From Oxalobacteraceae bacterium (GTDB lineage: Bacteria > Pseudomonadota > Gammaproteobacteria > Burkholderiales > Burkholderiaceae_D), in contig RGFZ01000017.1 of assembly GCA_010024875.1 (NCBI GenBank), forward strand, positions 1-55,586: a stretch of DNA of 55,586 bases, given 5' to 3'. The first letter of the stretch is position 1. The number at the start of each line of letters is the position of its first letter. The position numbers and the translations under genes are program-made. Below the pieces are notes generated by a model, which saw only the letters and a program-made list of their open reading frames with translations, made no database searches and was not told where the DNA came from. Positions 1,320 to 20,197 of this stretch are shown here, in pieces.

Positions 1320-3875
1320 GTGAACACCAATGACTCTCCACGTACCGCATCGCTGATCTCCGGCACAGTCAATTCGACGGTGGCGAACGCTGTGCCTTTA
1401 GAACAAATGCTAGCCTTGCTGCCTGATCTGGTATTTATCCATGATCTGCAGGAAGCGCGACATATCTACTGCAACTCGCGCCTGGAGGCAGTGCTGGGTC
1501 TAAGTACAGAAAAGTTTCTGAATTCAGGTTTTGGCGACGATCCCGAGCTGTTCCATCCGGATGATCGCGAACCGCTGCACGCATGGTCTGCGCGTCTGGG
1601 GAAGCTGAAGGATCATGAGATGGCTCAGATCGAATACCGCATGCGCCACGCGGACGGCCGCTGGCGCCGGCTTCGCGTGAGGGCGGCACCAGCGTTTCGT
1701 GATCCGCAAGGGATTCTTCGCCTACTGTCGTGCAGCATCACCGACATCACCGAGCAGACTCAAGCCGGGACGACGTTGCCTCAGCATAATGAGATTCTTC
1801 GGCTGATACTCAACAGCATGACCGAAGGCGTGATTGTCTGCGATCAGCACGGCAAGACCTTGATGGTCAACCGCTCGGCCGAGCGCATGCTGAAGCTGGA
1901 CGAGCCGCTGACGCGGCTGTCGCAGATCCGGCGTGCGCAAGCAGCTGAAACCAGAAAAAACGAGAGCTTTCGTCTGTGGCATCAGCACCCCCTGGTACGA
2001 GCACTGAACGGAGAGACGCTCTCGGATCAGGAACTGGCGCTGTACGACCGGCGGCGCGATCTAGCCGTGACGCTCAGCCACTCTGCAGCTCCGCTGAAAG
2101 ACAGTGAAGGAAAGATCATCGGTGCAGTGGATGTCTTTCGCGACGTGACCGAAAGCCACCGCGCATTACAGGAGCTTCAAAGAGCAGAGGAGCATTTCCG
2201 CTTGCTGGTTGAGGGCACGACGGATTATGCGATTTTCATGCTGGACGGAACAGGACATATTGTCAGTTGGAACCCCGGCGCCGAGCGCATACTAGGCTAT
2301 CGCAAGATGGAAATCGTGGGCAGTCATGTCTCCGTATTTTTCACCCCCGAAGACCAGGAAAAGGGCGAGCCCCAACGGCTACTGCGACAGGCCGCGCTCG
2401 ATGGACGCAGTGAAGAAGATAGCTGGCGTGTCAGAAAAGACGGCCAGCGGTTCTGGTGTACCGGTGCGATGGGTGCGCTGCATGACAGCGCAGGACGCGT
2501 ACAGGGTTTCGTTGAAATCATGCGCGACAACACTGAGCGACGACTGGCGGAACAGAATGCCTTCTTCCTGGCCAATCATGATCCGCTCACCGGCTTGCCC
2601 AACCGCGCCCGCTTCATGGAGCGGCTGCACGAGGCGCTTATCAATGCCGATCGCGACACCACACGGGTCGCAGTACTGCTGCTGGATCTGGATCGATTCA
2701 AATCGATCAATGATCACCTCGGCCATCATGCGGGTGACGAACTCTTGCGGCTGGTCGCGCAACGGTTGCTGCGCTGTGTGCGCGAGACGGATACCGTGGC
2801 GCGCCTCGGCGGTGACGAGTTTGTCGTTATTCTCACCCGACTGAAATCGCTGTCCGCCGCCGAGCTCATCGCGGAGAACATCGTTCGCGAACTGGGCCAA
2901 AACTACGAGATCGAGCATCAGCTCATCAAGAGTGGCGCATCGGTGGGCATCGCGATGTATCCGCAGGATGGGCAGGACACCGGCGAGCTGTTGCAAAAAG
3001 CCGACCTGGCCATGTACCGCGCCAAGGCAAGCGGACGAAACCGGTTTCGGGTGTTTGCACCGAGCATGCTCACCGAGGTGCAGTTACGCCAGACGCAAGA
3101 GGATCTGCTCAGACAGTCCGTCGAACAGGGTGACTTTGAGCTGGTCTATCAACCGCAGATCGATCTTCAAACGCTGGGCTTTGTCGCTGTCGAAGCCTTG
3201 CTACGTTGCCGCAATCAGGGGTTGATGACGCTGTCGGCCAAGGCCTTGATCGCGCTGGCCGAGGAAATCGGCGTAATCAATGACCTAGGCAACTGGGTAA
3301 TGCGCGCCGCCTGCATACAGATGGGCCGCTGGCGTGCAGCCGGGCTGCCGGAATTCCGGATCGCTGTCAATGTCTCCGCCGCACAGCTACTGGATCCTTT
3401 GTTTCCGGGGATGATGCGTTCCGCGTTGCAGGATGCCGCCCTGCCTCCGCGCCTTCTTGAGATCGAGGTCAACGAGAGCGCGCTAGTCTTGGTGAGGGAA
3501 GGGCAGAGCATGGTGCTCGACCACCTGAAGTCGATCGGCGTGTCGATTAGCATTGATGACTTTGGCACGGGTATTTCCACGCTGTCATTTCTGAAGGATT
3601 TTCCGGTCGATGTGCTCAAGCTCGACCCGGCGCTCATACGCAATCTGCCGCGCGATCGAGAGGATGCGGCCATCGTCTCTGCCATCGTCAAACTGGCGAA
3701 GGATTTGAATATCAAAGTCGTGGCCGAAGGTGTGGAGACGGTAGAACAATTGGGTTTCCTGCGTGGCACGACGTGCCACCGGGTCCAGGGCTATTTGTTC
3801 AGCGAACCCGTGCGCCCGGAAAAACTTGAGCAGCTACTGCAGAGCCGCCAGCAGCAGGGGCAAGTCTTCCATTAA
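1320..3875 (+). CDS. PAS-PAS-PAS-GGDEF-EAL cyclic-di-GMP synthase/phosphodiesterase
   Basis: Predicted dual-domain enzyme of c-di-GMP turnover. No membrane segment is visible, so it is probably cytosolic and sensing through its PAS domains. Order in the 851-residue protein: PAS/PAC about 30-148, PAS about 155-285, PAS/PAC about 290-410, GGDEF about 415-580, EAL about 595-845. The cyclase motif GGDEF (497-501) is intact, and an RxxD inhibitory site (RETD, 488-491) lies exactly five residues before it. The phosphodiesterase side has EAL (625-627), DDFGTG (746-751) and AEGVET (802-807), so both activities look possible. I chose GTG at 1320 because a GGA ribosome-binding core at 1311-1313 sits six bases upstream. 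A TTG at 1299 in the same frame would add seven residues but has no such site. Which activity dominates cannot be read from sequence. Confidence 0.9.
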   Translation: MNTNDSPRTASLISGTVNSTVANAVPLEQMLALLPDLVFIHDLQEARHIYCNSRLEAVLGLSTEKFLNSGFGDDPELFHPDDREPLHAWSARLGKLKDHEMAQIEYRMRHADGRWRRLRVRAAPAFRDPQGILRLLSCSITDITEQTQAGTTLPQHNEILRLILNSMTEGVIVCDQHGKTLMVNRSAERMLKLDEPLTRLSQIRRAQAAETRKNESFRLWHQHPLVRALNGETLSDQELALYDRRRDLAVTLSHSAAPLKDSEGKIIGAVDVFRDVTESHRALQELQRAEEHFRLLVEGTTDYAIFMLDGTGHIVSWNPGAERILGYRKMEIVGSHVSVFFTPEDQEKGEPQRLLRQAALDGRSEEDSWRVRKDGQRFWCTGAMGALHDSAGRVQGFVEIMRDNTERRLAEQNAFFLANHDPLTGLPNRARFMERLHEALINADRDTTRVAVLLLDLDRFKSINDHLGHHAGDELLRLVAQRLLRCVRETDTVARLGGDEFVVILTRLKSLSAAELIAENIVRELGQNYEIEHQLIKSGASVGIAMYPQDGQDTGELLQKADLAMYRAKASGRNRFRVFAPSMLTEVQLRQTQEDLLRQSVEQGDFELVYQPQIDLQTLGFVAVEALLRCRNQGLMTLSAKALIALAEEIGVINDLGNWVMRAACIQMGRWRAAGLPEFRIAVNVSAAQLLDPLFPGMMRSALQDAALPPRLLEIEVNESALVLVREGQSMVLDHLKSIGVSISIDDFGTGISTLSFLKDFPVDVLKLDPALIRNLPRDREDAAIVSAIVKLAKDLNIKVVAEGVETVEQLGFLRGTTCHRVQGYLFSEPVRPEKLEQLLQSRQQQGQVFH

Positions 3876-3925
3876 AGACACTATCAACACGGGGCCGTAC
3901 CTTACCTCGGACGCAAGATTCAGCA

Positions 3926-3949
3926 GGCGCTCCGGCAGCGGCGAGCGCC
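3926..3949. repeat. GC-rich hairpin downstream of the GGDEF-EAL gene
   Basis: The arms GGCGCTC (3926-3932) and GAGCGCC (3943-3949) can pair across a ten-base loop. A T-run (TTTTT near 3966-3970) lies about 16 bases further on, too far for a canonical intrinsic terminator. It may be a weak terminator or processing hairpin between the c-di-GMP gene and the pirin gene. Confidence 0.3.
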
Positions 3950-3999
3950 GAGGGCTACAATCCTGTTTTTGAGCGACAAGTGCACAGGAGAGCAAGACC

Positions 4000-4866
4000 A
4001 TGGCCAACACCGCGCCCCGCAAGCTGGAACGCATCATCAGCGCAATGAACACTTCTGACGGCGCTGGCGTGCGCCTGCGACGCAGTCTGGGCAGCAGCGA
4101 GGGCACGCGTCTCGATCCTTTCCTGATGCTGGATGAATTTTCTTCCGACAATCCCGGCGATTACATCGCCGGCTTTCCCTCGCATCCTCACCGTGGTTTT
4201 GAGACCGTCACCTACATTCTCGATGGCCATATGCGGCATGAGGATCATCTGGGCAATCAGGGCGACCTCAGAAGCGGCGGTGTGCAGTGGATGACCGCTG
4301 GCCGGGGCATCATTCATTCGGAGATGCCGCAACAGGAAGAGGGCAGGATGCGCGGCTTTCAGTTGTGGATCAATCTGCCCGCCAAAGAAAAAATGAAGCC
4401 GGCCGGCTACCGCGATATTCCCGCCGAAGAGATACCGGTGCATGAACTGCCTTCGGGCGGCCGTGTGAAGGTGATTGCCGGCACCTTGCCGGTCAATGGG
4501 CACACGATCGAGGGTCCGATCGCCGGCCTCACGACCGAGCCCATGTATCTGGATGTGCAGCTTCCCGCCGGCGCCTCATTCAGCGCGCCGATTCCAAGCG
4601 GCCTGAATGCGATGGCCTATGTATTCGAGGGTAATCTGCAGCTGGCTGGTGACACTCGCATGCTGCCCACGCACAGCGGCGCCGTGCTCACTGATGGAGA
4701 CTCCGTCGAATTCATCGCCGGGAGCAGCGGCGCGCGATTTCTTTTGCTGGCAGGACGCCCGCTGAATGAACCCATTGTGCAGTACGGACCTTTTGTGATG
4801 AACACCACCGCCGAGATCGAGCAAGCGGTCCGAGATTATCAGACCGGGCGTCTGACGGCGACCTGA
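4000..4866 (+). CDS. Pirin family protein (bicupin)
   Basis: Cytosolic iron-binding cupin of the pirin/YhhW family; some members oxidise quercetin, others act as redox-linked regulators. The N-terminal cupin carries the family metal-site pattern HPHRGFETVTY (about 61-71), followed by RHEDHLGN and GGVQWMTAGRGIIHSEMP (about 91-108), which supply the His and Glu metal ligands. The C-terminal half is the second, usually metal-free cupin. Length of 288 residues is normal. Start ATG 4000 has an AGGAG ribosome site at 3986-3990. The last 28 bases overlap, tail to tail, the end of the glycosyltransferase gene on the other strand. Substrate unknown. Confidence 0.92.
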   Translation: MANTAPRKLERIISAMNTSDGAGVRLRRSLGSSEGTRLDPFLMLDEFSSDNPGDYIAGFPSHPHRGFETVTYILDGHMRHEDHLGNQGDLRSGGVQWMTAGRGIIHSEMPQQEEGRMRGFQLWINLPAKEKMKPAGYRDIPAEEIPVHELPSGGRVKVIAGTLPVNGHTIEGPIAGLTTEPMYLDVQLPAGASFSAPIPSGLNAMAYVFEGNLQLAGDTRMLPTHSGAVLTDGDSVEFIAGSSGARFLLLAGRPLNEPIVQYGPFVMNTTAEIEQAVRDYQTGRLTAT

Positions 4867-5987
4867 GTCAGGGGCTGTGGTGGTGTCAGCGCTGCCATCG
4901 CAGCCTCGGCCATGCCGCGTGCGGCAGCATCGAAATGATAGGACTCCACCAGCAGCTCGGCATGCCGTCCGAAAGCGGTGCAGCGCGCCGGATGCTGCAA
5001 CAGGCGCAACGCACACGCTGTCCAGTCGTCAATATTCAGTTCTCTTACATAGCCATTCTTGCCGTCGATGATCAGCTCACCGGCCACGCCGGCCTGAGGC
5101 GTAACGATCACGGGCAGCCCTGCCGCGCAAGCTTCATTGGCCACCACACCCCAGACATCGGCGCGGGTCGGAAACAAGAAAATGCGCGCAGACTGGTACA
5201 AGCTGGGCAAATCCTCTTGTCGTGCGAAGCCATGGAAGTGCGTATCGACGAATGAGGCAATTTCGCTTGCCTGGGCTTTAAGCGATACCTCAAGGCTGCC
5301 GGAACCTACGAACATCAAGCGAGTTTTTCGGTTCATGATTCGGGCGCAGCGTTCGGCCACCTGCAGCGCAAATTCGGGCGCCTTGCCGGGCTCCAGCCGG
5401 CCGCACACAATGAAATCCCATGCTTTGGGTATCGTTTGCAATCGAGCCTGAAAGCGACCATTGTCCACGCACAGACATGATATGTGGCAGCGTCGCTCAT
5501 CCACGCCATAGCTGCGATACAGCGCCAGACCGCCTCTGCTGGCCGCGATCATCGCGGGCGCCCTGCGATAAACAAAGCGCCGCACGCGCCGGTGCAACTG
5601 ACTCAGGTGTTTTTCCGAATCTAGTGTGCCGTCAGTCATTGGCACATAGGCGCGACGGTGCAGCATCGTCCACAGCACAGCATACAAATGGGTAGGGTTG
5701 AAGCCATTGCCGATCACGACCTGCGGACTATAGCTTGTGAGGGCGAGCAGCACATCGGGGTTATTGTGAATATAGCGGCCGTCTACCGTGCGTATGCGCT
5801 CGTGCAGGAACACATGATCGAATTCCATGCGCGGCAGGTTCCACTGCCGGTTGGGCTCGCGTCGACAGCAGAAAATCACCCGCAGATCAATGCCGGGCAG
5901 CGCGGCGAGCCGGTTGAATACCGGAATACGGTAAGGAGGGGGCTCGTTAACGACCAGGGCGAGTCGGGGCATAGGGAAGGGCGGCAT
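4839..5987 (-). CDS. GT4-family glycosyltransferase (second of pair)
   Basis: GT-B fold sugar transferase of 382 residues, probably acting on a surface polysaccharide or glycolipid at the cytosolic face of the membrane. Seen: an N-terminal acceptor domain beginning RLALVVNEPPPYRIPVF, and a C-terminal nucleotide-sugar domain with VCGRLEPGKAPEFALQVAE, LMFVGSGSLEVSL and LFPTRADVWGVVANEACAAGLPVI. The usual E-x7-E pair of GT4 enzymes appears here as Asp-x7-Glu (DVWGVVANE), a conservative change at the first acid. The start overlaps the end of the upstream glycosyltransferase gene by 41 bases, so the two are an operon and probably translationally coupled; an ATG at 5972 is an alternative start. Donor and acceptor sugars are unknown. 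Confidence 0.85.
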   Translation of the reverse strand: MPPFPMPRLALVVNEPPPYRIPVFNRLAALPGIDLRVIFCCRREPNRQWNLPRMEFDHVFLHERIRTVDGRYIHNNPDVLLALTSYSPQVVIGNGFNPTHLYAVLWTMLHRRAYVPMTDGTLDSEKHLSQLHRRVRRFVYRRAPAMIAASRGGLALYRSYGVDERRCHISCLCVDNGRFQARLQTIPKAWDFIVCGRLEPGKAPEFALQVAERCARIMNRKTRLMFVGSGSLEVSLKAQASEIASFVDTHFHGFARQEDLPSLYQSARIFLFPTRADVWGVVANEACAAGLPVIVTPQAGVAGELIIDGKNGYVRELNIDDWTACALRLLQHPARCTAFGRHAELLVESYHFDAAARGMAEAAMAALTPPQPLTQVAVRRPV

Positions 5988-7164
5988 CAGAAAGGGCGGA
6001 CGGACCCGAGGGGGCAGCTCGGCTAGCCAGCGCCTCGTGATAGATGCGGATCATCTGCACGTAATTGGTCTCTGGCGTGTAGCGTTCCAAATAAACCTCG
6101 CGCGCAGCGCGTCCCATCGCCAGCATGGCCTCGGGATGCGTCTCGGCATACTCGATCGCCTGTGCCAGCGCGCGCGCATCACCGGGCGGCACCAGCAAAC
6201 CGGTATTGCCTTGCACGACGATTTCTTTCAGGCCGCCGTGTCGGCTGGCGATGACAGGCGTGCCACAGGCAAATGCCTCAATCGCGACCAAGCCAAAACT
6301 TTCGACGCCGGTGCTGGGCATGACGAGATAGGCCGCTTTGCGCAGCCGCGCCTGTAGCGTGGCAGATTGAAAAAAGCCCTGGTAACGCAGTCCCGGCGTG
6401 TTCTCGACCAGCCTTTGCAGCGGCCCTTTGCCGTATACATCGATCTCCACCGAGCGCAACTGCCTGACGGCTTCAGCGAGCGTATGAAGCCCCTTCTCTG
6501 CGGACAGTCTGCCAATGAACAAGCCACCACTGCGCTGCTGCCAGTCTGGCCGCTGATCGACTTCCACAAAGTTAGGCTTGATGCGTAGCTTATCGAACGG
6601 CAGACCGCCTGCGACGAACTTGTCCCGGCATAGCTGGTTCAGCACGATATAGCGAGCGACTTCCGTACGCCAAGTGCCGCGTAGCCGGTGCATCAGAATC
6701 ATGGCGGCAGTGATCGATGATTGAGACAAGGAATCTCGGTAACAACGATGAATGACAGCGCGCCACGGGAAATGCCCGATGCAAGCTTCGCACGAGTCTC
6801 CGTTTCGAAGCAACATCGCTTGGGGACACAACAGCCTGAAGTTATGCAGGGTCTGGACAACCGGTATGTTGAGTTGATGGGCCACCGCATACAGTGACGG
6901 TGAAATGATCGGAAAGGTATTGTGGGCGTGGATGAGGTCGGGTCCGAATGCTTTGTGTATGTGCCGGATATCTGCTTCGGTTTGCCGCGACCACAGCACG
7001 CCAATGACCGCGTCTTGCTTCTTCATTGATGCAAGCTCGCGGTTGTCGCGCGTGTAGAGTAGTACCCGATGCCCATGCCGGCGCAGCAGCGCCACTTCTG
7101 CATCGACCACCGTATCTTCGCCGCCGCGGTAGTGATAACGATTGTGCACGACGAGAATTTTCAT
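5947..7164 (-). CDS. GT4-family glycosyltransferase (first of pair)
   Basis: GT-B fold sugar transferase of 405 residues. Seen: N-terminal KILVVHNRYHYRGGEDTVVD and the DLIHAHNTFPIISPSLY stretch typical of GT4 acceptor domains. A Cys-containing insert follows (NGDSCEACIGHFPWRA, about 122-137), as found in capsule and O-antigen transferases. The C-terminal domain has LFIGRLSAEKGLHTLAEA, DVYGKGPLQ and the complete E-x7-E motif ESFGLVAIE followed by AFACGTPVIAS. It is the first gene of a two-gene unit with the overlapping GT4 gene downstream. No polymerase, flippase or sugar-nucleotide genes are nearby, so the polysaccharide cannot be named. The extreme C-terminus after about residue 385 is Ala/Pro/Ser-rich and probably not part of the fold. 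Confidence 0.88.
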   Translation of the reverse strand: MKILVVHNRYHYRGGEDTVVDAEVALLRRHGHRVLLYTRDNRELASMKKQDAVIGVLWSRQTEADIRHIHKAFGPDLIHAHNTFPIISPSLYAVAHQLNIPVVQTLHNFRLLCPQAMLLRNGDSCEACIGHFPWRAVIHRCYRDSLSQSSITAAMILMHRLRGTWRTEVARYIVLNQLCRDKFVAGGLPFDKLRIKPNFVEVDQRPDWQQRSGGLFIGRLSAEKGLHTLAEAVRQLRSVEIDVYGKGPLQRLVENTPGLRYQGFFQSATLQARLRKAAYLVMPSTGVESFGLVAIEAFACGTPVIASRHGGLKEIVVQGNTGLLVPPGDARALAQAIEYAETHPEAMLAMGRAAREVYLERYTPETNYVQMIRIYHEALASRAAPSGPSALSDAALPYAPTRPGR

Positions 7165-7285
7165 GTGCCGATCTTAGGCGAGCGGCTGCGCTCAGTATCG
7201 ACCTGGCTCAAGCAAGTCAGCTATCATCATCCACATGACCGATACGACCGTCATCTGTCTAACTATCATCAATCGGAGATGAAGC

Positions 7286-7969
7286 ATGAATCCATTCGCG
7301 CTCGACGAAAAACGCGTACTGCTGACGCAGGCGAACGACTTCATGGGCCCGGCTCTGCGGCAGGTATTCAGCGAGTTGGGTGCCGAGGTGATTTCCGATA
7401 ACGATGCGCTGGACCACCCCGCACGACCCGACGAGCTGATCAAAGAGGTAGGGCGGGTGGATGTACTGCTAGCCAATCTGGGCATTCCCGCGCCCTCCAC
7501 GCCGGCCGCCGATGTCACCGAAGATGAATGGCGTTCCGCATTCGCTCATATGGTCGACCCCTTGCAGCGCCTAGTGAAAGCCGTGCTGCCGCAGATGAGC
7601 GCGCGCGGCTCGGGGAAAATCATTCTGATCGGCAGCGCGTCGGCGTTGCGCGGCATTCGCCGTGCCTCTACCTACAGCGCCGCGCGTGGTGCGCAGCTAG
7701 CGTACATCCAGTCCGTGGGCGTAGAGCTCGCGGCCAAGAACGTGCAGGTCAATGCGATTGCGCAAAACTACGTGGATAACCCGACGTATTTTCCGGCTCA
7801 GGTTCAGGCCAACCCGGTATTTCAGGAAAAGCTCAAGCGCGAAGTGCCGCTGGGTCGATTGGTTTCGTCGCGAGAAGATGCCTTGTTCGCCGCGTATCTG
7901 GCGAGTTCTGCCGCCGATTGTTTTGTAGGACAAGTGTTTCCCGTGTGCGGTGGCTGGGTGCCGCGCTAA
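7286..7969 (+). CDS. Halohydrin dehalogenase-like short-chain dehydrogenase/reductase
   Basis: This is an SDR-fold protein of 227 residues, but not an ordinary NAD(P)H oxidoreductase. The glycine-rich cofactor motif is absent; in its place is T14-QAND-F19-M-G21, matching the T-x4-F/Y-x-G motif that marks the halide/nucleophile pocket of halohydrin dehalogenases. The catalytic set is S117-x12-Y130-x3-R134, with Arg where normal SDRs have Lys; this Ser-Tyr-Arg triad is the second hallmark of those enzymes. The C-terminal half (STYSAARG, QNYVDNPTYFP, PLGRL, GQVFPVCGGW) lines up with HheC as I remember it. Known family reaction: reversible conversion of vicinal haloalcohols to epoxides, with promiscuous ring opening by cyanide or azide. 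The physiological substrate is unknown. Start ATG 7286 has GGAG at 7275-7278. Confidence 0.82.
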   Translation: MNPFALDEKRVLLTQANDFMGPALRQVFSELGAEVISDNDALDHPARPDELIKEVGRVDVLLANLGIPAPSTPAADVTEDEWRSAFAHMVDPLQRLVKAVLPQMSARGSGKIILIGSASALRGIRRASTYSAARGAQLAYIQSVGVELAAKNVQVNAIAQNYVDNPTYFPAQVQANPVFQEKLKREVPLGRLVSSREDALFAAYLASSAADCFVGQVFPVCGGWVPR

Positions 7970-8026
7970 GGGTATCTGGGCAAGATAAAACGCGCATAAT
8001 TTGTATTATGTAAAATGACTTAGATC

Positions 8027-8124
8027 GTCGTTCCAGCGAAGGCCGGGATCAATGGCCGGTGGAAAACCCCGGCCCCCGTGTCACTGCCCAAGTGATCATG
8101 GATTCCGGCCTGCGCCGGACCGAC
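8027..8124. repeat. REP/BIME-like inverted repeat
   Basis: Two roughly 30-base arms, 8027-8056 and 8095-8124, are imperfect reverse complements of each other (core GTTCCAGCGAAGGCCGGGAT versus the complement of ATTCCGGCCTGCGCCGGAC), separated by about 38 bases. The composition and position, between a plus-strand gene end and a minus-strand gene end, are typical of extragenic palindromic elements dispersed in proteobacterial genomes. No second copy was noticed in this window. Confidence 0.6.
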
Positions 8125-8173
8125 CAATGTTGGGCCGGCATCGGCATGGCGCGCTTCAGCCGCTAACACCCCA

Positions 8174-8638
8174 TCATTTGATCGCTAGCGCCTTGCTCGC
8201 GCCGCCCGCCCGTTTGGGCAGTGACAACGAGAGCACGCCATTTTCATACCGGGCTTCCGCACCCTTATCGTCGATATCCTGCGGCAGGCTGAAACTACGG
8301 TATTGCTCGCCTGCGTAGCGCTCCCGGCGGACGAGTTTGCCTTCCTGCTTTTCTTCTTTTTCTTCCGCCGTCTGGGCGCGGATCGTCACTTGATTGCCCT
8401 CGATCGACACCTGAATATCTTCTTTTTTGACACCTGGAATATCGGCCTTGATGTCATATGCCTGATCGGATTCCTGCACATCCAGCCGGATACTGGGCTC
8501 AGCCTCGAAGCCTCGCAAGGAGGGCATCAGCGAGAATTCGCGCATCGCCTCCTCGAAATTACGAAAAGGATCCATGCGCAGCGGATCAAAACGGGCCAGA
8601 TCGCTGAACGGTGAGAGGCGGGTCAGTTGGCGTGCCAT
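8174..8638 (-). CDS. Hsp20/alpha-crystallin small heat-shock protein
   Basis: ATP-independent cytosolic holdase that binds unfolding proteins until Hsp70/Hsp100 can refold them. The protein has 154 residues, as expected for a class B bacterial sHSP. Seen: an N-terminal arm rich in Phe, Arg and Met, an alpha-crystallin domain from about residue 48 (SIRLDVQESDQAYDIKADIPGV) to about 146, and the conserved end motif YENGVLSLSLPK. A highly charged Glu/Lys loop (AEEKEEKQEGK, about 90-100) lies in the dimerisation region. The start is well supported by AAGGAGA six bases ahead of ATG 8638. It is on the same strand as the CBS-pair gene just upstream, so the two may be co-transcribed. Confidence 0.95.
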   Translation of the reverse strand: MARQLTRLSPFSDLARFDPLRMDPFRNFEEAMREFSLMPSLRGFEAEPSIRLDVQESDQAYDIKADIPGVKKEDIQVSIEGNQVTIRAQTAEEKEEKQEGKLVRRERYAGEQYRSFSLPQDIDDKGAEARYENGVLSLSLPKRAGGASKALAIK

Positions 8639-8678
8639 GACAATCTCCTTTAAAAGTAGTCCATAAAATCAGCGCAAA

Positions 8679-9131
8679 TCATTTTCTGAGCCGTCCTTCA
8701 GTCGTGATCTGCTCCGTCATCAGACACGCCAGCATCGACAACTCTCCCGCGAGCACGTTGAGCAAATCGTCCGAGGTGACCATGCCGAATAAACCCCCTG
8801 CCCGATTGACTACCGGCAGCCGGCGCACTCGTTTGCCGCGCATGATGCCCAGCGCCTCGGCCAGACTGGCATCCTCTTGCACGGTGGTCAGCGGTGTTGA
8901 CATGAGGTCTGACGCAGTGAACAGCCGGGCTTCGATGTCCAGCGCAATCGTCTCGACCAGAATGTCCCGGTCGGTGATGATGCCTATCGGTACGCGCTGC
9001 TCTTGCTGTTGCACGCCAATCACCACGACGTCGCCCACATGATGTCGGCGCATGAGTGCAGCAACTTCCGCAATGGGCGCGTCGGGTTCGCAGCAGATCA
9101 CATTTCTGTTGCAGTAGTCCCTGATGAACAT
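8679..9131 (-). CDS. CBS domain-pair protein
   Basis: Stand-alone CBS pair (Bateman module), which usually binds adenine nucleotides and regulates a partner protein. The protein has 150 residues. CBS1 spans about 8-62 (CCEPDAPIAEVAALMRRHHVGDVVVI, IGIITDRDILVE) and CBS2 about 75-130 (MSTPLTTVQEDASLAEALGIMRGKRVRRLPVV, GMVTSDDLL), each with the TDRD / TSDD ligand-site pattern. I chose ATG at 9131 because AAGGAG stands just ahead of it and the Bateman module begins immediately. The reading frame stays open upstream to 9434, but that part runs antisense to the neighbouring gene and has no domain. No effector domain is attached, so the partner is unknown. Confidence 0.9.
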   Translation of the reverse strand: MFIRDYCNRNVICCEPDAPIAEVAALMRRHHVGDVVVIGVQQQEQRVPIGIITDRDILVETIALDIEARLFTASDLMSTPLTTVQEDASLAEALGIMRGKRVRRLPVVNRAGGLFGMVTSDDLLNVLAGELSMLACLMTEQITTEGRLRK

Positions 9132-9228
9132 TGAGCTCCTTTCGGCAAGGCCTGCCGGATTGACAGCCGGCAGGTAATGGGAACACCATAGCTGTACACA
9201 CGAATTTTCCCGATCAGAAGGTGACACC

Positions 9229-9534
9229 ATGTCCGAGCAACGCCCCTCCTCTACCGATACCACCAATCTTGAGCGAATCTCCGTTCTAGTCTCTGATCTG
9301 GAACAAGAACTGTCCACAGCCCCACCTGATTCACCGAGAGTCATGGCATTGAAGGAAGAGTTGCTGCTGCTCCGCCGAACCTTGTCTGCCTCTGATGGTG
9401 AAGTGGAGCAGTTGCGGCGGCGACTGCATGGCACTCATGGCAAGCTGGATGATCTGGTCGCCAGTGTCGAGGGTGAGGTACTGAGAGATACGCCCTATCT
9501 GGCCGAGCTGGGCCGCATCCTCGGGCTGGTCTAA
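9229..9534 (+). CDS. Small coiled-coil protein of unknown function
   Basis: A 101-residue acidic protein I do not recognise. Heptad-like Leu and Glu spacing from about residue 13 to 75 (LERISVLVSDLEQEL, ALKEELLLLRRTL, EVEQLRRRL, KLDDLV) predicts a helical coiled coil, and it ends in TPYLAELGRILGLV. No signal peptide or membrane segment is visible. Its overall plan is similar to small helical DUF4404-type proteins, but I cannot confirm membership. An AAGGTG ribosome site precedes ATG 9229. It is divergent from the CBS-pair gene with 97 bases between the starts, and the next plus-strand gene begins 165 bases downstream. It is probably real, given the start signals and consistent heptads. Confidence 0.6.
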   Translation: MSEQRPSSTDTTNLERISVLVSDLEQELSTAPPDSPRVMALKEELLLLRRTLSASDGEVEQLRRRLHGTHGKLDDLVASVEGEVLRDTPYLAELGRILGLV

Positions 9535-9699
9535 GTCGCTGTCAATGCGTGCTTTCTTGCTTCCTCAATAAAAACCTCATCGACTGAGCAACTTCTTCAG
9601 CGCGCGCCTGTCCTACCGCAGCCGTGCGCAATCCTGTAATTCCCAAATCAGCGCTGACACTGCCCGGCCGCAGACAGCAGCACTTCAAGAAGCGTTCTC

Positions 9700-11646
9700 A
9701 TGCCTCATTTTCCTTCGCTTGCGCGCTCGCTCAAGAACGCGCATCTCCGTACGGCCTTGTTCGCATTGCTTCTGCTATGTGCAGTCATCATTTCCATCGA
9801 ACGCGCGCCGAAGCTAATCAAGCATTCCCCGGTGGTCTACAGCCAAGATGTTTCTCTGATCACTTCTTTGCCAACGCAGCGCGACCGGCTTGAATACCTG
9901 CTTCTGGCGCAGCCGCTGTCAGATTCTCCGCGCTATGTGATCAAGTACAAAGATCAGACCAAGCTTTTCTCAGTCAAAGTTCCCAGCACTACCCATGTCA
10001 ATCTCGAGCGCGAAGTGTTGCTCAGGGCCGGCATACCGTATGCGATCGCACAGCCCGAATGGCTGGCCACGCATGATGAGGTACTGCGCGATCAAGAGCC
10101 GTCGCAAAGCTTCTGGGGAAGCGCCACCGGTTTCATGGCTCACAATGCAATGGGCCTGTTGCTGCTTGTGATGATGGCTGCCGCGCTTAAGAAAAGCATG
10201 CCCGGTCTGGCGAGCGGCATCTCGCTAACCCGGCCAGAGAAGCTCAAAGGCAGCATGGATGATCTGATAGGCATGGAAGACATCAAGCGGGAGGTCGCGC
10301 ATCTGGCATCGATGATCCGTCATCGCGAACTATACAAGTTGCACAATATTGACAAGCCCTTTCATGTGATGCTGACTGGACCGGCAGGTACCGGCAAGAC
10401 CAAGCTCGCGGGCTATCTGGCCAAACAGCTTGATATTCCACTGATACAGGTATCGGGTTCCGGGCTGGAATCCGGCTTGGTCGGCGGCGGCTCGAAAGCA
10501 CTGAACGCAATCTACAAAAAAGCTTGCGCGCAAGGTCGCTGTCTGATCTTCATTGATGAGGCACAGAGCCTGTTCATGCCGCGTGGTCGCGGCGAGCGCA
10601 AGTGGGATGACGATACGTCGAACACGCTCCTTGGTCTACTGGATGGGATCAAGAGTGATGAGGGCAATGGAGTGATCTGGGTGGTGGCATCTAACTTTGA
10701 TGATGCCAACAGCGAGATGGACGAAGCGATGCTGCGCCGCTTTTCGGTAAAGATCAACTTCCGTCTGCCAAACAAAGCCGAGCGGCGAGCGCTACTCAGC
10801 GTTTTCTTGCGTCGCAAGGACAAGGCGGTGGTCGCCTGGGAGCAGCTGAATCTCGATTACGTCGCCGAGATCACATCGAATCTCTCCCCTGCCCTGCTGG
10901 AAAGCGTGGTCGATGGGGCCAGCATGATCGCGATTGAAGAAGGCTGCCAGATCGATACCGACCTGTTGTTCCGGGCGTTCGAACGGAGTGCCATCGGCCT
11001 GACCGACCGCGCCGCCAGCGCCGAAAAAGACAAGCAGCGCGAGCGTGTGGCGCTACACGAGCTGGGACATTTTTTCATGCAGATTGATCCGCTACTTAGG
11101 CAGGGAATGCCGTTGGACGAGGTGAAAACCAAATCAACACTGTTAAAGATCAGCACGGAATCCGTATCGAAGCTGGGCGCATTGGGCTATGTACTGTCAG
11201 CCATGCCGGATGCGGGCTTGCAGACGCTGGAAGAGCTGGAGCAGGATGTAATACAGCTGTATGGCGGTGTCGCGGCGGAGGAATTGTTCTATGGCGAACG
11301 TGGGATTTCTATCGGCAGCCAGAACGATATCCAGAAAGTAACCGCCCGCCTTGAGTTGATGGTCAACCAGCTATCGATGTATTCCCGCTCGAAGCTGGAC
11401 TACCGCCAGCTCAGGCACGATGGCGCGCCCGCCACCTCGGTGCGTGAGTTGGAACAGAAAGCAGATGAACTGTATGAGCATACACTCAAGGCAATGGCCA
11501 GCTACCAAGGCTGGATGATTCAGCTGAAGGATACGCTGATGGAGCGTTACGTGCTATCGAAAGACGAGGTATTTGATCTGCTAGCCTGCTTTCAGGCGGA
11601 TCAGTTCCTTCACCCGCAACTTGCGGAGGCTCGAGTCGCTACATAA
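9700..11646 (+). CDS. Divergent FtsH-like membrane AAA+ zinc protease (M41)
   Basis: Predicted inner-membrane ATP-driven protease of 648 residues with the FtsH plan: a transmembrane helix about 18-33, a periplasmic domain about 36-145, a second helix about 149-163, an AAA domain about 185-430 and an M41 peptidase about 440-635. Walker A is GPAGTGKT (227-234) and Walker B is LIFIDEA (282-288). The SRH is shortened to DEAMLRRF. The zinc site HELGH (453-457) and the third-ligand Asp543 in SIGSQNDIQ correspond to HEAGH and GASND of FtsH, so it should be an active protease. Oddities: the pore-loop aromatic of FtsH (FVG) is LVG here (260-262), and the sequence is far from housekeeping FtsH. The ribosome site before ATG 9700 is weak (AAGAAG). 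It is convergent with the effector-like operon. Substrate unknown. Confidence 0.87.
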   Translation: MPHFPSLARSLKNAHLRTALFALLLLCAVIISIERAPKLIKHSPVVYSQDVSLITSLPTQRDRLEYLLLAQPLSDSPRYVIKYKDQTKLFSVKVPSTTHVNLEREVLLRAGIPYAIAQPEWLATHDEVLRDQEPSQSFWGSATGFMAHNAMGLLLLVMMAAALKKSMPGLASGISLTRPEKLKGSMDDLIGMEDIKREVAHLASMIRHRELYKLHNIDKPFHVMLTGPAGTGKTKLAGYLAKQLDIPLIQVSGSGLESGLVGGGSKALNAIYKKACAQGRCLIFIDEAQSLFMPRGRGERKWDDDTSNTLLGLLDGIKSDEGNGVIWVVASNFDDANSEMDEAMLRRFSVKINFRLPNKAERRALLSVFLRRKDKAVVAWEQLNLDYVAEITSNLSPALLESVVDGASMIAIEEGCQIDTDLLFRAFERSAIGLTDRAASAEKDKQRERVALHELGHFFMQIDPLLRQGMPLDEVKTKSTLLKISTESVSKLGALGYVLSAMPDAGLQTLEELEQDVIQLYGGVAAEELFYGERGISIGSQNDIQKVTARLELMVNQLSMYSRSKLDYRQLRHDGAPATSVRELEQKADELYEHTLKAMASYQGWMIQLKDTLMERYVLSKDEVFDLLACFQADQFLHPQLAEARVAT

Positions 11647-11668
11647 ACCAAAAGCAGTTGGTGCGCAT

Positions 11669-11701
11669 AAAAAAAGTGGCCGGCCACATTCATCCGGCCA
11701 C
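11669..11701 (-). terminator. Intrinsic terminator of the effector-like operon
   Basis: GTGGCCGG (11676-11683) pairs with CCGGCCAC (11694-11701). Read on the minus strand, the hairpin is followed directly by seven T residues (11675-11669), which makes it a terminator for the minus-strand genes ending at 11711. In the plus direction the hairpin has no good T-run, though it may still help to end the protease transcript. Confidence 0.8.
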
Positions 11702-11710
11702 TTGCCGTCT

Positions 11711-13018
11711 TCAGGAATCAAAATACTTAATTGCATCATCAAAAAATGATGGCCATTCTCTCACCAGATGTTCCCGCAGTGTATTCGCGAATGCAGTCTG
11801 CAGCACCGATGGAGCGGCGTGCGCAGTATCCGCAGTGCTACTCTGCATGCCATTTGATGAGAGTTGCTTTACAGGCTTAAGCGCGTACGGATAAATTTGC
11901 CGTGTAATGAGCAAATCGAATGCGAGATTTCTGCGGGCGGTAAGTATTTGTTCTTTGCTCAGTTCCGGGTTTTTGGTTGCTTCCTGAACAAGTATCGTAT
12001 CGAGCTGCTTCCAAAACTCCAGCAATGCTGGCGGCAAATGGGATTGGTTGAATTTTCGACCAGCACCGAAAATCACATCGACACAAGCTTTAGCCTGAGT
12101 CATCACTGACTGATTCATCTGCTCCTTTAACGCGTTGCTACTGTCCACCTCGCCCGCCGTCAATTGAGCAAAATCGATCGCAGCGAGTTCAGGGTGGCTA
12201 TCGAGGATAATTTTCAGCATGGCGACCATGGTTTTTCCTGCGCTACTCTGACTCATATGGTTTGCGAGTGCTGAGTTCAGCAAAGAATTCAGCATCACTT
12301 TGCCGTCACGCGTCGACGGTGGCGCCAACGGGCGAAGTACATCAGGAAGTGCCGTGGCATCGATTTTTCCATCTGTTCTTCCCAATGAATTAATCTTTGC
12401 TACAGTCAGTTTTCCGTATTGTCCATCCTTGGAATGAGATGATGATTTCAGTAACTGGTTGATCCACAGGTCAGCCAGCGCATCCATTTGTTCTGATGGT
12501 GGCTGCTTCAGGCTGACCGTATTCGGAGGCGCGCTCAGACGCTGAGATGGCAGCTTTTGCACAGAAGTCATTTGAGGTGACGCATCTGCATTAGTTGTCG
12601 CCGAAGTAACGGTCTGCGTGATAGTCGTATTGCGGGAAGCGGTCGGCGATTCAATTTGATGTCGGCGCGTTGACTTCACCTCATGTTCGCTGCGTGGTGA
12701 TCGGGGAGATTTCATGAGATGTGGCGAGTCACCGGATTCGACAGATGATCCCATTGATCTTATCCGCAGAGCGGGCAGACTTGCGGGCGATTTAAACTGC
12801 GTAACCGGGCTACCATCTGGCATTGGTACTGGAGTCGGCGTGGTATCGGCCAATGTCACTTTCTTTTTCTCGGGTGAGCGCATGACAGGCATTGACTGAT
12901 GCTTTTTCGCAGAAGATGAGGATTTTCCTCCCGAATCGGATGATGAACTGAGTAAATTTTTTTCTGAAATTTGATGGCTTGGCTGATAATTTAAAGGAAT
13001 ATCATTGCTTGATAACAT
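11711..13018 (-). CDS. Ser/Pro-rich protein with helical C-terminal domain; candidate type III effector
   Basis: Not recognised. The protein has 435 residues. About residues 1-180 are low-complexity (Ser, Pro, Thr, Lys; for example SSSDSGGKSSSS and SPRSPRSEHEVKS) with no signal peptide. About 185-435 look like a folded, mainly helical domain (LADLWINQLLK, VMLNSLLNSALANHM, ILTARRNLAFDLLITRQIYPYALK). A disordered Ser-rich N-terminus plus a compact C-terminal domain is the usual plan of type III secreted effectors, and CesT-type chaperone genes lie 6 kb away; secretion is inference. The start is ATG 13018 with AGAGA before it; a TTG at 13039 in the same frame is less likely. It sits 17 bases after the preceding gene, as an operon, and ends at an intrinsic terminator. 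The region is A/T-richer than its surroundings. Confidence 0.7.
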   Translation of the reverse strand: MLSSNDIPLNYQPSHQISEKNLLSSSSDSGGKSSSSAKKHQSMPVMRSPEKKKVTLADTTPTPVPMPDGSPVTQFKSPASLPALRIRSMGSSVESGDSPHLMKSPRSPRSEHEVKSTRRHQIESPTASRNTTITQTVTSATTNADASPQMTSVQKLPSQRLSAPPNTVSLKQPPSEQMDALADLWINQLLKSSSHSKDGQYGKLTVAKINSLGRTDGKIDATALPDVLRPLAPPSTRDGKVMLNSLLNSALANHMSQSSAGKTMVAMLKIILDSHPELAAIDFAQLTAGEVDSSNALKEQMNQSVMTQAKACVDVIFGAGRKFNQSHLPPALLEFWKQLDTILVQEATKNPELSKEQILTARRNLAFDLLITRQIYPYALKPVKQLSSNGMQSSTADTAHAAPSVLQTAFANTLREHLVREWPSFFDDAIKYFDS

Positions 13019-13035
13019 GACTGAATCTCTCTTTA

Positions 13036-13812
13036 TCAAAGTGCTTTTTCTTCAGAATCAATAGAAATTTGATCGCCGGAAGTTAGGCCAGATGCCTGGC
13101 CGAGAATATTGGCTGTCGTTGTTACTGACAAAGGCATTACGCTTGATCTAGTGGTTGTGGTGGTGGTTGTGGTGGTCGTTGTGGTCGTAGTCGGTGAGCT
13201 AGTTGCAGTTGTTGTCGTCACTACGGGAGCTTCCTCCTCGTAGTTAAAGGTTTCTATCACGGCTTGATGGATGACAGTTTGATCACCGAAGTTCGATATA
13301 TCCTTCGCTGATTCACTAACCCACTGCTGTGCAAGGCCTGCATCAAATGTAACTGTTCTTCGATTGATACGATCATCGGTATCGGTACCTACTTTTTCAT
13401 GAAGACTTTGAGTAATGGCTAGTTCTATCGCACTTTCTCTTTGTCGTGGCGTTGTCAACATTGGCAGCGTATTTCTTGGGCTGCTTGGAAAAATTTCTGG
13501 CTTAGGTCCTGGCGCTCCAATTCTTGTTGAAGATTGAGCAGAGTGACCATCACTTGGCGGTGAGTGCGGCAATACACTACTGCTGTCCTGGGTGGTAAAT
13601 TTTATCTGCAATCTTGGCACCTTTGCGCCACTGCTTTGGATACTAGGATCATTTGATTTTTCTTTTTCTACCTCTTTGTTTTGCTGTGAGATTCCCTCTC
13701 TGTGTACATCATCTCTGCCAGAGGTATTGGCTTTCCCTTGGTCAGATATGTCAGGATAATCATTCGATGAAGAGTGGTAGCCTGATGAAAAATTGAGATC
13801 TGGTTTAGCCAT
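13036..13812 (-). CDS. Ser/Thr-rich low-complexity protein with a poly-Thr tract; candidate secreted effector
   Basis: Not recognised. The protein has 258 residues, predicted mostly disordered, rich in Ser, Thr, Asp and Gln, with no signal peptide or membrane helix. A moderately ordered patch lies about 120-200 (RQRESAIELAITQSLHEKV, FDAGLAQQWVSESAKDISNFG). It is followed by VVTTTTATSSP and a run of 14 Thr codons. It is first in a two-gene unit with the 435-residue protein and starts 95 bases after the end of dnaE2 on the same strand, so read-through from the SOS operon is possible. The ribosome site is weak (GGGA). The composition resembles that of type III effectors, which is suggestive only. 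Confidence 0.6.
   Translation of the reverse strand: MAKPDLNFSSGYHSSSNDYPDISDQGKANTSGRDDVHREGISQQNKEVEKEKSNDPSIQSSGAKVPRLQIKFTTQDSSSVLPHSPPSDGHSAQSSTRIGAPGPKPEIFPSSPRNTLPMLTTPRQRESAIELAITQSLHEKVGTDTDDRINRRTVTFDAGLAQQWVSESAKDISNFGDQTVIHQAVIETFNYEEEAPVVTTTTATSSPTTTTTTTTTTTTTTRSSVMPLSVTTTANILGQASGLTSGDQISIDSEEKAL
13150..13191 (-). repeat. Fourteen consecutive threonine codons
   Basis: A simple ACN-triplet run inside the effector-like gene encodes 14 Thr in a row. Codons are mixed (ACC most common, with ACA, ACG and ACT), so the DNA is only imperfectly repetitive. It could expand or shrink in whole codons without breaking the frame. Confidence 0.85.
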
Positions 13813-13907: not shown

Positions 13908-16900
13908 CTACGTGAAATCTCTGCTTCCGATGGTTAGCGTACCTAGTAGTGAAGACAAATCGAGTAGCCGTTTAGCGATCAAATGATTCACATTGTTTTC
14001 TGTCTGCCATATTCCATAGACAGCAAGTAATGAAGCATTTAAAAGCTCATGCCGTTGTTGTTCGATCAGCGAAGGCCAGACAATGACATTCACATTGCCG
14101 GTTTCGTCTTCCAGCGTGACGAATATCGTTCCTTTGGCGGTGGCTGGTCGCTGGCGCACTGTGACAATGCCGCACGCACGTGCGAATTGTCCTTGCTGAT
14201 AGGTTCTCAATATTTCTGCTGTCATGAACCGTTTATCGAGCAACTGTTTGCGCAAGAAGCTCAGCGGATGACGACCTAGCGTCAGCCCAAGTGTGCGATA
14301 GTCGCTCACTGTTTGATCGAGGTCTGAGGGTGGGGGTAAATGAATAATTTCAGGCTCTGGCAACGCACCTCTGAGCAAGCCTTTGCCGGGTGCTGCAGTC
14401 GCTGCCTGCCACAGTGCTTCACGTCGATGACCTGCGAGATTTTTTAGTGCGTCGGCAGCAGCCAGCGCTTGGATATCTGCAGTAGACAATGATGCGCGCA
14501 AGGCCAGATCGCGCAGATCGGAAAATGGCTGCACTGCCCTCGCCTCTTCAATACGCCATGCAGCTTCCTGCGGCAAGCCGCGCACGAGGTTCATGCCCAA
14601 CCTGACCGCAGGTTGAGCATTTTCGGCGAGTTCAAGTGTCGCTTCCCAGTCGCTCCAGAGGACATCGACAGCGCGCACCTCTACCCCATGCCGACGCGCA
14701 TCCTGCACCAGTTGAGAAGGTGAATAAAATCCCATCGGCTGGCTATTGAGCAACGCCGCCAGAAAAGCGGCCGGTTGATGGCATTTCAGCCAGGCGCTGG
14801 CATACGCGAGCAAGGCAAAGCTGGCGGCATGGCTTTCAGGGAAACCGTATTCGGCAAAACCCTGTATCTGCGCATAGATGGCTTCAGCAAATTCGCGTGT
14901 ATAGCCACGCTCGCGCATACCGTGGATAAGTTTGTCATGAAATTTTTCTAGTCCGCCTTTACGCTTCCAGGCTGCCATCGCACGCCGTAACTGATCGGCT
15001 TCGCCTGCGGTGAAGCCAGCCGCGAGCATGGCGATCTGCATCACCTGTTCTTGAAAGATAGGAACGCCTAGCGTGCGCGACAAGGCGGATTCCATATCGG
15101 CGCTGGGATAAACAATCGGCTCCAGACCTTGCCGGCGTCTCAGATACGGATGGATCATTCCACCCTGTATGGGGCCGGGGCGGATGATTGCCACCTCGAT
15201 GACCAGATCGTAGAAAGTACGCGGTCTCAAGCGTGGCAGCATGCTCATCTGCGCACGGCTCTCAATCTGAAATACGCCTATCGTGTCGGCACGGCTGATC
15301 ATGTCGTATGTCGCCGTATCTTCAGCGGGTATGTCAGATAGGGTGAATACCTCGCCGCGCTGTTCGGAAATCATGTCCAGCGCGCGGCGCATGGCCGAGA
15401 GCATACCCAGCGCGAGTATGTCGACCTTCAGTAAGCCGAGTACATCCAGATCGTCTTTGTCCCACTGTATAACGCTGCGACCTTCCATCGCCGCTTTTTC
15501 GATGGGTACCAACCGCGACAACTTGTCACGCGCGATCACAAATCCACCCGGATGCTGGGATAAATGCCGGGGAAAGCCGATCAGTGTTGTCGTCAGTTCC
15601 TGCCACTGCTTTGACAAGGGCGATTCGGGGTCTAGTCCCGCTTCGCTGAAGCGCTCTCCCAATGCCTCGCGGCTGTCCCACCAGCGATGGGATTTCGCCA
15701 GCCGGTCAATGAGTCCGAGATCGATGCCCAGTGTCTTGCCCGTATCGCGCAGGGCGCTGCGTGGCCGATAAGTGATGACAACACCGGTCAGTGCCGCGCG
15801 ATGCCGGCCATATTTTTCATAGATGTACTGAATGATTTCTTCGCGCCGCTGGTGTTCGAAATCGACATCAATGTCAGGGGGCTCGTTACGTTCTTTGGAG
15901 ATGAAGCGCTCGAACAGCAGATTGCTACGTGCCGGGTCGACTTCGGTAATGCCCAGGCAATAGCAGACTGCAGAATTCGCTGCTGACCCCCTGCCCTGGC
16001 ACAGGATGTGCCGGTTTCGGGCAAAAGAAACAATGTCATACACTGTGAGGAAGTAAGGCTCATAGGCCATCTCTGCGATCAGTGTCAGCTCATGCTCGAT
16101 CTGCTGCTGCACCGGCGCCGGTATGCCTTTCGGAAAGCGACGGTGCGCACCCACCCAGGTTTGCTCTCGCAGATAACTGGAGGGCGTATAACCTTCGGGC
16201 ACCAGTTCATCCGGATACTCATAGCGCAGGCTATCCAGCGAGAAGTTGCACAGCCTGGCGATCGCCATGGTCTCGGCGAGTGCCTCCTCCGGATACAAGT
16301 TTGCCAATCGCAAGCGCGAACGCAGATGCTGCTCGGCATTCGGGAACAAGCGCTTTCCGCATTCAGCCAGCGGCTTGCCGGCACGGATCGCTATCAATAC
16401 ATCTTGCAAGCGCTTGCGTGAGCGCAGATGCATGCACACATCCCCAGTGGCGGCGATACGCAAGCCGTTCAGCGCAGCCGCCTGAAACACGCTTGCCTTG
16501 TGCTGCTCATCCTGCCCGCGATGCAGCAGGGTCAGTGCGATGCGCGCGCGCTCGCCAAACGCTGCTGTCATCCATGCGGCCTGTCGGTGCAATGTCGGCA
16601 TATCGACACCGTAATCCGGCGCCAGCAGCAGCAGACAATCCGGTAGCCCGCGCAGATGCGCATGCCCTATAGCAGGGTCAGAGAAATCTTCTTGCGTCAG
16701 CCGATAGTGGCCTTTCTCTGCGCGCCCCCTGCCCAGCGTGATCAGCTCGCACAGATTGCCGTAGCCATTACGGTTCATCGCAAGCGCAATGAGTCGCAGA
16801 TCGCCCGCGTCATGATGAACTCGGAACTGACTGCCAATGATCAGCGCCATCCCTTGCCGCTTTGCCTCGGTATGCGCGCGCACTATGCCTGCCACCGAGC

Positions 16901-17045
16901 ATTCATCGGTGATTGCGATCGCACCATAATCCAGCGCAGCAGCGCGCGCGACCAGTTCTTCCGGATGTGAGGCGCCGCACAAAAAGCTGAAGTTCGAGAC
17001 GCACTGAAGCTCGGCGTAAGCAGGTAGACCGCGGTTGGCAAACAT
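13908..17045 (-). CDS. dnaE2: Error-prone DNA polymerase DnaE2 (ImuC)
   Basis: Catalytic subunit of the SOS translesion mutasome; with ImuA and ImuB it copies damaged DNA at the cost of mutations. Its 1045 residues are normal for DnaE2. Seen: an N-terminal PHP domain opening YAELQCVSNFSFLCGASHPEEL, the C-family palm with catalytic acids in PPDIDVDFEHQRREE (389-403), QGRGSAANSAVCYCLGIT (350-367), and a third acid region near WDKDDLDVLGLLKVDIL. Finger segments include RPGPIQGGMIHPYLRRR, and an OB-fold lies near the C-terminus (GIVTVRQRPATAKGTIFVTLEDETGNVNVIVWP). The start is ten bases after the imuB stop, so the three genes form one LexA-controlled operon. Confidence 0.97.
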   Translation of the reverse strand: MFANRGLPAYAELQCVSNFSFLCGASHPEELVARAAALDYGAIAITDECSVAGIVRAHTEAKRQGMALIIGSQFRVHHDAGDLRLIALAMNRNGYGNLCELITLGRGRAEKGHYRLTQEDFSDPAIGHAHLRGLPDCLLLLAPDYGVDMPTLHRQAAWMTAAFGERARIALTLLHRGQDEQHKASVFQAAALNGLRIAATGDVCMHLRSRKRLQDVLIAIRAGKPLAECGKRLFPNAEQHLRSRLRLANLYPEEALAETMAIARLCNFSLDSLRYEYPDELVPEGYTPSSYLREQTWVGAHRRFPKGIPAPVQQQIEHELTLIAEMAYEPYFLTVYDIVSFARNRHILCQGRGSAANSAVCYCLGITEVDPARSNLLFERFISKERNEPPDIDVDFEHQRREEIIQYIYEKYGRHRAALTGVVITYRPRSALRDTGKTLGIDLGLIDRLAKSHRWWDSREALGERFSEAGLDPESPLSKQWQELTTTLIGFPRHLSQHPGGFVIARDKLSRLVPIEKAAMEGRSVIQWDKDDLDVLGLLKVDILALGMLSAMRRALDMISEQRGEVFTLSDIPAEDTATYDMISRADTIGVFQIESRAQMSMLPRLRPRTFYDLVIEVAIIRPGPIQGGMIHPYLRRRQGLEPIVYPSADMESALSRTLGVPIFQEQVMQIAMLAAGFTAGEADQLRRAMAAWKRKGGLEKFHDKLIHGMRERGYTREFAEAIYAQIQGFAEYGFPESHAASFALLAYASAWLKCHQPAAFLAALLNSQPMGFYSPSQLVQDARRHGVEVRAVDVLWSDWEATLELAENAQPAVRLGMNLVRGLPQEAAWRIEEARAVQPFSDLRDLALRASLSTADIQALAAADALKNLAGHRREALWQAATAAPGKGLLRGALPEPEIIHLPPPSDLDQTVSDYRTLGLTLGRHPLSFLRKQLLDKRFMTAEILRTYQQGQFARACGIVTVRQRPATAKGTIFVTLEDETGNVNVIVWPSLIEQQRHELLNASLLAVYGIWQTENNVNHLIAKRLLDLSSLLGTLTIGSRDFT

Positions 17046-17054
17046 GATCGCTGC

Positions 17055-19878: not shown

Positions 19879-19948
19879 CTGATGTCTCGGTGAAATCGTG
19901 CTTGCTCATGAGCCTCGCAAGTCACTGGTTTTTATCTGCGGTAAAAGA

Positions 19949-20164: not shown

Positions 20165-20197
20165 GACTTCTCCTGTCGATTTACGAGAGTTATCACT

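Follow-up and report, generated by a model that had tools for sequence, protein, structure and literature searches.

A predicted D-type halohydrin dehalogenase encoded by a stand-alone gene in an Oxalobacteraceae genome

An open reading frame (ORF) at positions 7286..7969 on the plus strand of contig RGFZ01000017.1 (Oxalobacteraceae bacterium, assembly GCA_010024875.1) very probably encodes a cofactor-free D-type halohydrin dehalogenase (HHDH), as judged from sequence comparison. The whole stretch analysed, 55,586 nucleotides in length, is referred to as the window. The gene, called hheD in the following, has an ATG start and a length of 227 codons, and its assignment is based on the ORF, a PDB sequence match, a tree and a predicted model. 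A prediction made earlier from the letters of the window had proposed a halohydrin dehalogenase, and this is supported by the sequence search, the motifs, the tree and the predicted fold alike. The gene extends a subtype that already has many members, and the kind of enzyme is already known.

Both HHDH motifs named in the original prediction are present with the spacing it gave. Motif 1, T14-x4-F19-x-G21 (7325..7348, plus strand), reads TQANDFMG at residues 14-21, in agreement with the family form T-x4-F/Y-x-G, and corresponds to the nucleophile or halide pocket found in place of the cofactor motif of short-chain dehydrogenases/reductases (SDRs) (PMC4989007; this and the other papers are cited from excerpts). 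Motif 2, S117-x12-Y130-x3-R134 (7634..7687, plus strand), holds the catalytic triad and reads SASALRGIRRASTYSAAR at residues 117-134. The protein carries no glycine-rich T-G-x3-G/A-x-G cofactor motif, as had been noted before, and no Y-x3-K, arginine replacing the lysine. The three classical SDRs taken from the same genome all carry Y-x3-K, and neither HHDH motif was found in any of them. In an alignment of the window sequence with 29 sequences chosen from 80 related loci, the residues T14, F19, G21, S117, Y130 and R134 are invariant (30/30).

A wider set of 93 related loci was compiled from these 80 and 13 others out of two collections; the window is included, several genomes occur twice and seven loci on the minus strand were skipped. 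Both motifs were read in 91 of the 93. The two failures, L012:1501-2184 and L029:2938-3621, are apparently one locus, coding for a D-type HHDH in which isoleucine replaces T14. Among other loci of the window's genus 16 of 17 carry both motifs, as do 17 of 18 further loci, with L118 (alanine instead of G21) as the exception. For HheC and HheG it is reported that only the exchanges of threonine to serine and of glycine to alanine kept detectable activity, and that two natural variants at the motif 1 threonine exist (PMC11976700, excerpt). Because of these exchange data and natural variants, the protein with isoleucine at position 14 may be impaired, although it is not without parallel.

The best match among PDB sequences was 7b73 (HheD2), with an E-value of 3.6e-93 over residues 1-225, followed by 8xxb (3.9e-83), HheB 4zd6 (6.8e-51) and 6a41, described as 'dehalogenase' (2.5e-31). 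As far as sequence comparison goes, the match to HheD2 excludes a chance resemblance to HHDHs. Further down the A, C and G kinds of HHDH and classical SDRs were intermixed at approximately 1e-18 to 1e-21, the best row of classical SDR appearance being 3uf0 at 5.1e-20. As these three kinds score like classical SDRs, it is the D and B matches together with the motifs that carry the HHDH call. Identity to the window protein is 63.8% for HheD2, 60.3% for 8xxb, 44.2% for HheB, 33.3% for 6a41 and 25-31% for the three SDRs of its own genome. For the predicted model, built for a single chain of what in HHDHs is a homotetramer, the first four structure matches are all HHDHs; the fold is of the SDR Rossmann type and closest to the solved HHDH structures.

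A tree of 44 rows places the window protein inside a fork of 29 rows (support 98/95) which also holds HheD2 and 8xxb. Placement within the classical SDRs had been given in the original prediction as one outcome that would speak against it; in the tree the SDRs of the own genome are separated by a branch with support 100/98. Beyond subtype D the tree contained one HheB, the 5kvc stretch, whose chain we take to be HheC-like, and 6a41; named enzymes of subtypes A, E, F and G were absent from it. HheB, 6a41, 5kvc and the SDRs form long branches whose placement is unsure. The enzymes HheD19-38 are described as 57-95% identical to the verified enzymes HheD to HheD6 (PMC4989007, excerpt), and the window protein both groups with known HheD enzymes and falls inside this identity range. 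The protein had been considered short for the family and possibly a new subtype. We rejected a new subtype, as the tree places the protein with HheD2 and HheD8 and its identity to HheD2 is 64%; its length is ordinary, 227 residues also being the chain length of HheB, and 230 that of HheD2 (PMC5892878, excerpt). A separate fork outside the D fork is formed by L109-L112, HHDH-like proteins 41-47% identical to that of the window, from small genomes (1.8-2.1 Mb) of the same order; their motif 1 has the form TCxxKYMG.

Within the genus of the window hheD is present as a single copy in 18 of 21 genomes, the own genome included, and in 13 of 14 good genomes (E 1e-40). The three genomes without it are G004 (94% complete), G010 (88%) and G011 (75%). 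Close relatives come from metagenome-assembled genomes labelled Oxalobacteraceae, Burkholderiaceae, Burkholderiales or Polynucleobacter, some having pond- or lake-like names, labels that suggest a freshwater betaproteobacterium. A copy from Noviherbaspirillum denitrificans TSA40 is 70% identical. Divergence of hheD within the genus reaches 31%. Among the gene families of 83 compared loci hheD itself is the most common, and the next ones occur in 17, 14 and 13 loci. Among the rows listed, these most common neighbours, a glycosyltransferase, a CBS protein and a pirin, come almost entirely from the genus of the window, HSP20 occurs in 6 of the 83 loci, and the common neighbours of these loci name no pathway or partner. 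The ratio of nonsynonymous to synonymous substitution rates (dN/dS) was calculated with 11 of the 18 genus sequences, seven being skipped by strand. It was 0.044-0.075 in the seven pairs within the genus that exceed 85% identity, all without the window sequence; of ten pairs between the window and other sequences, five gave 0.051-0.173, mostly with dS above 1, and five were saturated. We therefore consider hheD, on these substitution rates, to be under purifying selection. The G+C content of hheD (0.607) and its G+C content at third codon positions (0.700) lie at the upper end of the values of five neighbouring window genes. Together, the distribution in the genus, the common neighbours, the low dN/dS and the base composition speak for a useful gene which would have been kept for a long time.

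The chemistry of HHDHs and the anion pocket that replaces the cofactor site have been described for homologues (PMC4989007, excerpt). Residues, conservation and the predicted fold were observed here, and chemistry and substrate are carried over from the homologues. S117 would hold the hydroxyl group of the substrate, and Y130, made more acidic by R134, would take up the hydroxyl proton. The resulting alkoxide would displace the neighbouring halide to give an epoxide, the halide leaving via the pocket lined by T14, F19 and G21. In the reverse direction, epoxides would be opened with halide or other small anions. As for the role, a stand-alone and vertically kept enzyme clearing natural vicinal haloalcohols or the matching epoxides has, by analogy, about an even chance of being right. 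The combined explanation, a predicted D-type HHDH with SDR fold and with such chemistry and role, is the one that we favour with good confidence. More tentative, and somewhat doubtful to us, is the generalisation that in this genus the D-type HHDH is a standing, vertically kept enzyme, uncoupled from epoxide hydrolase, having a hitherto undescribed normal function on natural haloalcohols or epoxides and not in the breakdown of pollutants. The original prediction had left the natural role open, which was fair, since the 2016 review says the same of the HHDH family (PMC4989007, excerpt).

The closest alternative concerns this role: a D-type HHDH might naturally open epoxides with a natural nucleophile, or carry out a related lyase-type step on an epoxide made by the cell. 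This would agree with its being kept in 18 of the 21 genomes of the genus, no epoxide hydrolase having been found next to it, and other physiological functions cannot be excluded according to the review (PMC4989007, excerpt). However, the window protein keeps every motif residue of true dehalogenases, detoxification and degradation of haloalcohols are the presumed natural function (PMC11536340, excerpt), and in two relatives hheD has an epoxide hydrolase-like gene as its partner. We regard this alternative as rather unlikely.

These two relatives, both Pseudomonadaceae, were found among the 80 loci, many of which end early at contig ends; in each, the epoxide hydrolase-like gene lies directly upstream of hheD, with both genes on one strand. 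In L046:6960-8681, from a record labelled Halopseudomonas xinjiangensis, 69 bases separate the genes, and in L093:1422-3154, labelled Pseudomonas, they overlap by four bases; each pair is likely an operon. Among PDB sequences, 'putative epoxide hydrolase EphA' (E 4.9e-78) and 'bifunctional epoxide hydrolase 2' (near E 1e-64) match the L046 protein, with which the L093 protein shares 71% identity. Pfam gives only alpha/beta hydrolases for both, and the best NCBIfam row for the L046 protein is a haloalkane dehalogenase subfamily far below its cut-off (85 versus 265 bits). From the PDB matches we infer that both are epoxide hydrolases, and the pairing fits a route from halohydrin via epoxide to diol. 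Two further loci (L042, L052) have a partial match to the epoxide hydrolase-like protein at a distance of approximately 7.6 kb. HHDHs of the D kind from the Pseudomonas pertucinogena lineage are already listed in print (PMC6922532, excerpt), the HheC gene is reported to share an operon with an epoxide hydrolase (PMC11976700, excerpt), and the 2016 review counts two HHDH genes in such operons (PMC4989007, excerpt). A different arrangement was seen in L126:6908-11977 (G033), where hheD is flanked by a methionine-synthase-family gene, for which the other loci searched yielded no relative, and by an alpha/beta hydrolase of indistinct type, followed by genes for L-threonate dehydrogenase and 3-oxo-tetronate kinase.

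Alternatively, haloalcohol pollution could have selected for hheD as a catabolic gene of recent acquisition. Strains enriched with haloalcohols or epihalohydrins were the source of the classical A, B and C enzymes (PMC4989007, excerpt), and outside the genus the gene is patchy, occurring in 26 of 300 genomes and 11 of 134 genera of the order (E 1e-40) and in 1 of 11 genomes from other genera of the same family. Recent acquisition is nevertheless improbable in view of the 18 of 21 genus genomes, the common neighbours, the divergence of up to 31%, the low dN/dS in close pairs and a G+C and GC3 at the upper end of those of five neighbouring genes. Finally, an ordinary NAD(P)-dependent SDR whose motifs merely resemble those of HHDHs is highly improbable: Pfam gives SDR families only (adh_short_C2, E 3.4e-30) and, of 184 matching NCBIfam models, the 25 among the matches listed are all reductases or dehydrogenases, but these 25 are far below their cut-offs, SDR names are expected as neither Pfam nor NCBIfam returned an HHDH model, and the missing glycine-rich motif, the arginine for lysine in Y-x3-K, the 64% whole-length identity to HheD2 and the tree placement all stand against it.

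The absence of halo-organic genes nearby, also part of the original prediction, is true of the 40 further ORFs that were scanned with Pfam (a subset of the window ORFs): none encodes an epoxide hydrolase, a haloalkane dehalogenase or a haloacid dehalogenase. It does not extend to the genome, where three proteins outside the window exceed the cut-off of the haloacid dehalogenase (HAD) type II model. At least one such protein is found in 21 of 21 genus genomes versus 2 of 14 control genomes, but also in 109 of 300 genomes of the order, and the name of the model does not prove haloacid activity. A region of the own genome (L136, G000:C174, approximately 3161-12666) holds a P450, an aldo/keto reductase, two SDRs and a HAD type II protein within approximately 10 kb. 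A halogenase model matched in 1 of 21 genus genomes and not in the own genome. Epoxide hydrolases of the EHN type gave short matches in 5 of 21 genus genomes, 3 of them over the cut-off. The protein beneath one of these matches (L127) is a general alpha/beta hydrolase by Pfam and has relatives at E 1e-20 in 20 of 21 genus genomes; in five of them (G003, G006, G008, G014, G018) a relative and hheD share a contig, at a distance of 12-20 kb. Because two relatives of the L127 protein occur in the own genome, with 28% identity over most of the length and 40% over approximately 120 residues, this genome may have a hydrolase acting on epoxides.

Co-occurrence was evaluated in the 300 genomes of the order, using E-values of 1e-40 for HHDH, 1e-36 for HAD type II, 1e-10 for EHN and 1e-15 for a control P450. 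The 26 HHDH-positive genomes include those of L109-L112 (genus g29), outside the D fork, and of L113-L116, beside HheB. HAD type II was found in 25 of the 26 versus 84 of 274 others (genera 10/11 versus 51/123), and EHN epoxide hydrolase in 18 of 26 versus 27 of 274 (genera 6/11 versus 16/123). Stratification by P450 gave p 3e-7 for HAD and 3e-9 for EHN when genomes were counted, and 0.058 and 0.0095 when genera were counted; kinship enters this comparison through genera only, and genome size does not enter it. The Rieske family, present in 255 of 300 genomes, was too common as a control. The co-occurrence of HHDH with HAD type II and EHN is suggestive only.

A number of observations weigh against the favoured explanation. 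The control P450, present in 22 of 26 HHDH genomes versus 71 of 274 others (genera 10/11 versus 45/123), tracks HHDH about as strongly as HAD type II and EHN do. In the own genome there was no match to an EHN-type epoxide hydrolase and none at E 1e-20 to the Pseudomonadaceae epoxide hydrolase; less specific alpha/beta hydrolases are present there. The gene is monocistronic in the window. In the predicted model residues 119-125, 161-163, 188-190 and 215-227, which form active-site loops, have a confidence score (pLDDT) under 50. Furthermore, the border between D and B in the tree is not clean, as HheB, itself a long branch, joins four D-like rows (L113-L116, 55-59% identical) just outside the D fork.

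The question of the natural role of HHDHs is real and already in print. Since most of the genus members sampled keep hheD as a lone gene in single copy, natural function becomes a testable question, and such near-universal presence makes the genus well suited for testing it. For D-type enzymes, a direct hypothesis comes from the two loci of Pseudomonadaceae in which an epoxide hydrolase-like gene is adjacent.

In the window, hheD stands alone since both direct neighbours are on the opposite strand. Upstream, 121 bases away, lies a divergent glycosyltransferase gene (5947..7164, minus strand), which recurs beside hheD in relatives, and downstream a convergent gene for an HSP20 small heat-shock protein (8174..8638, minus strand); both were named by Pfam and are given as context only. 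No clear common motif was found in 18 upstream regions of hheD. Matches resembling a promoter (one, at 7198-7227, 0.6 expected) or a terminator (three, within the coding region, 1.3 expected) carry no meaning. Additionally, the window contains an FtsH-like AAA ATPase with a weak M41 peptidase match (9700-11646), found in 6 of 83 compared hheD loci with the window counted, and two ORFs without any Pfam family match (11711-13812). ORFs at 13908-19025, with Pfam signatures of a DNA polymerase III alpha-type protein and an impB/mucB/samB protein, resemble an SOS mutagenesis cassette, and two CesT (Tir chaperone family) ORFs are located at 19411-20665.

Compared with named enzymes, the window protein is most like HheD2 (PDB 7b73) from a gammaproteobacterium, at 63.8% identity, sharing subtype, motifs, fold and a similar length, whereas the host groups differ. 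HheD8 (PDB 8xxb) belongs to the same supported fork and has the same motifs, but is found on a branch of the D fork other than that of the window's genus; the 60.3% identity refers to a mutant chain, 8xxb being described in the structure library as the triple mutant A69F/M124P/R127G with chloride. HheB from Corynebacterium sp. N-1074 (PDB 4zd6) is of the B subtype, equal in length and 44.2% identical, and has tyrosine in motif 1 where the window protein has phenylalanine. The Ser-Tyr-Arg triad is also present in the 5kvc stretch, which is 34.4% identical to the window protein over 180 residues. HheC from Agrobacterium radiobacter AD1 shows the motif pattern of the window protein according to excerpts of published descriptions, and differs in having 254 residues with a C-terminal extension that was unique to HheC among the HHDH structures reviewed in 2016 (PMC4989007, excerpt).
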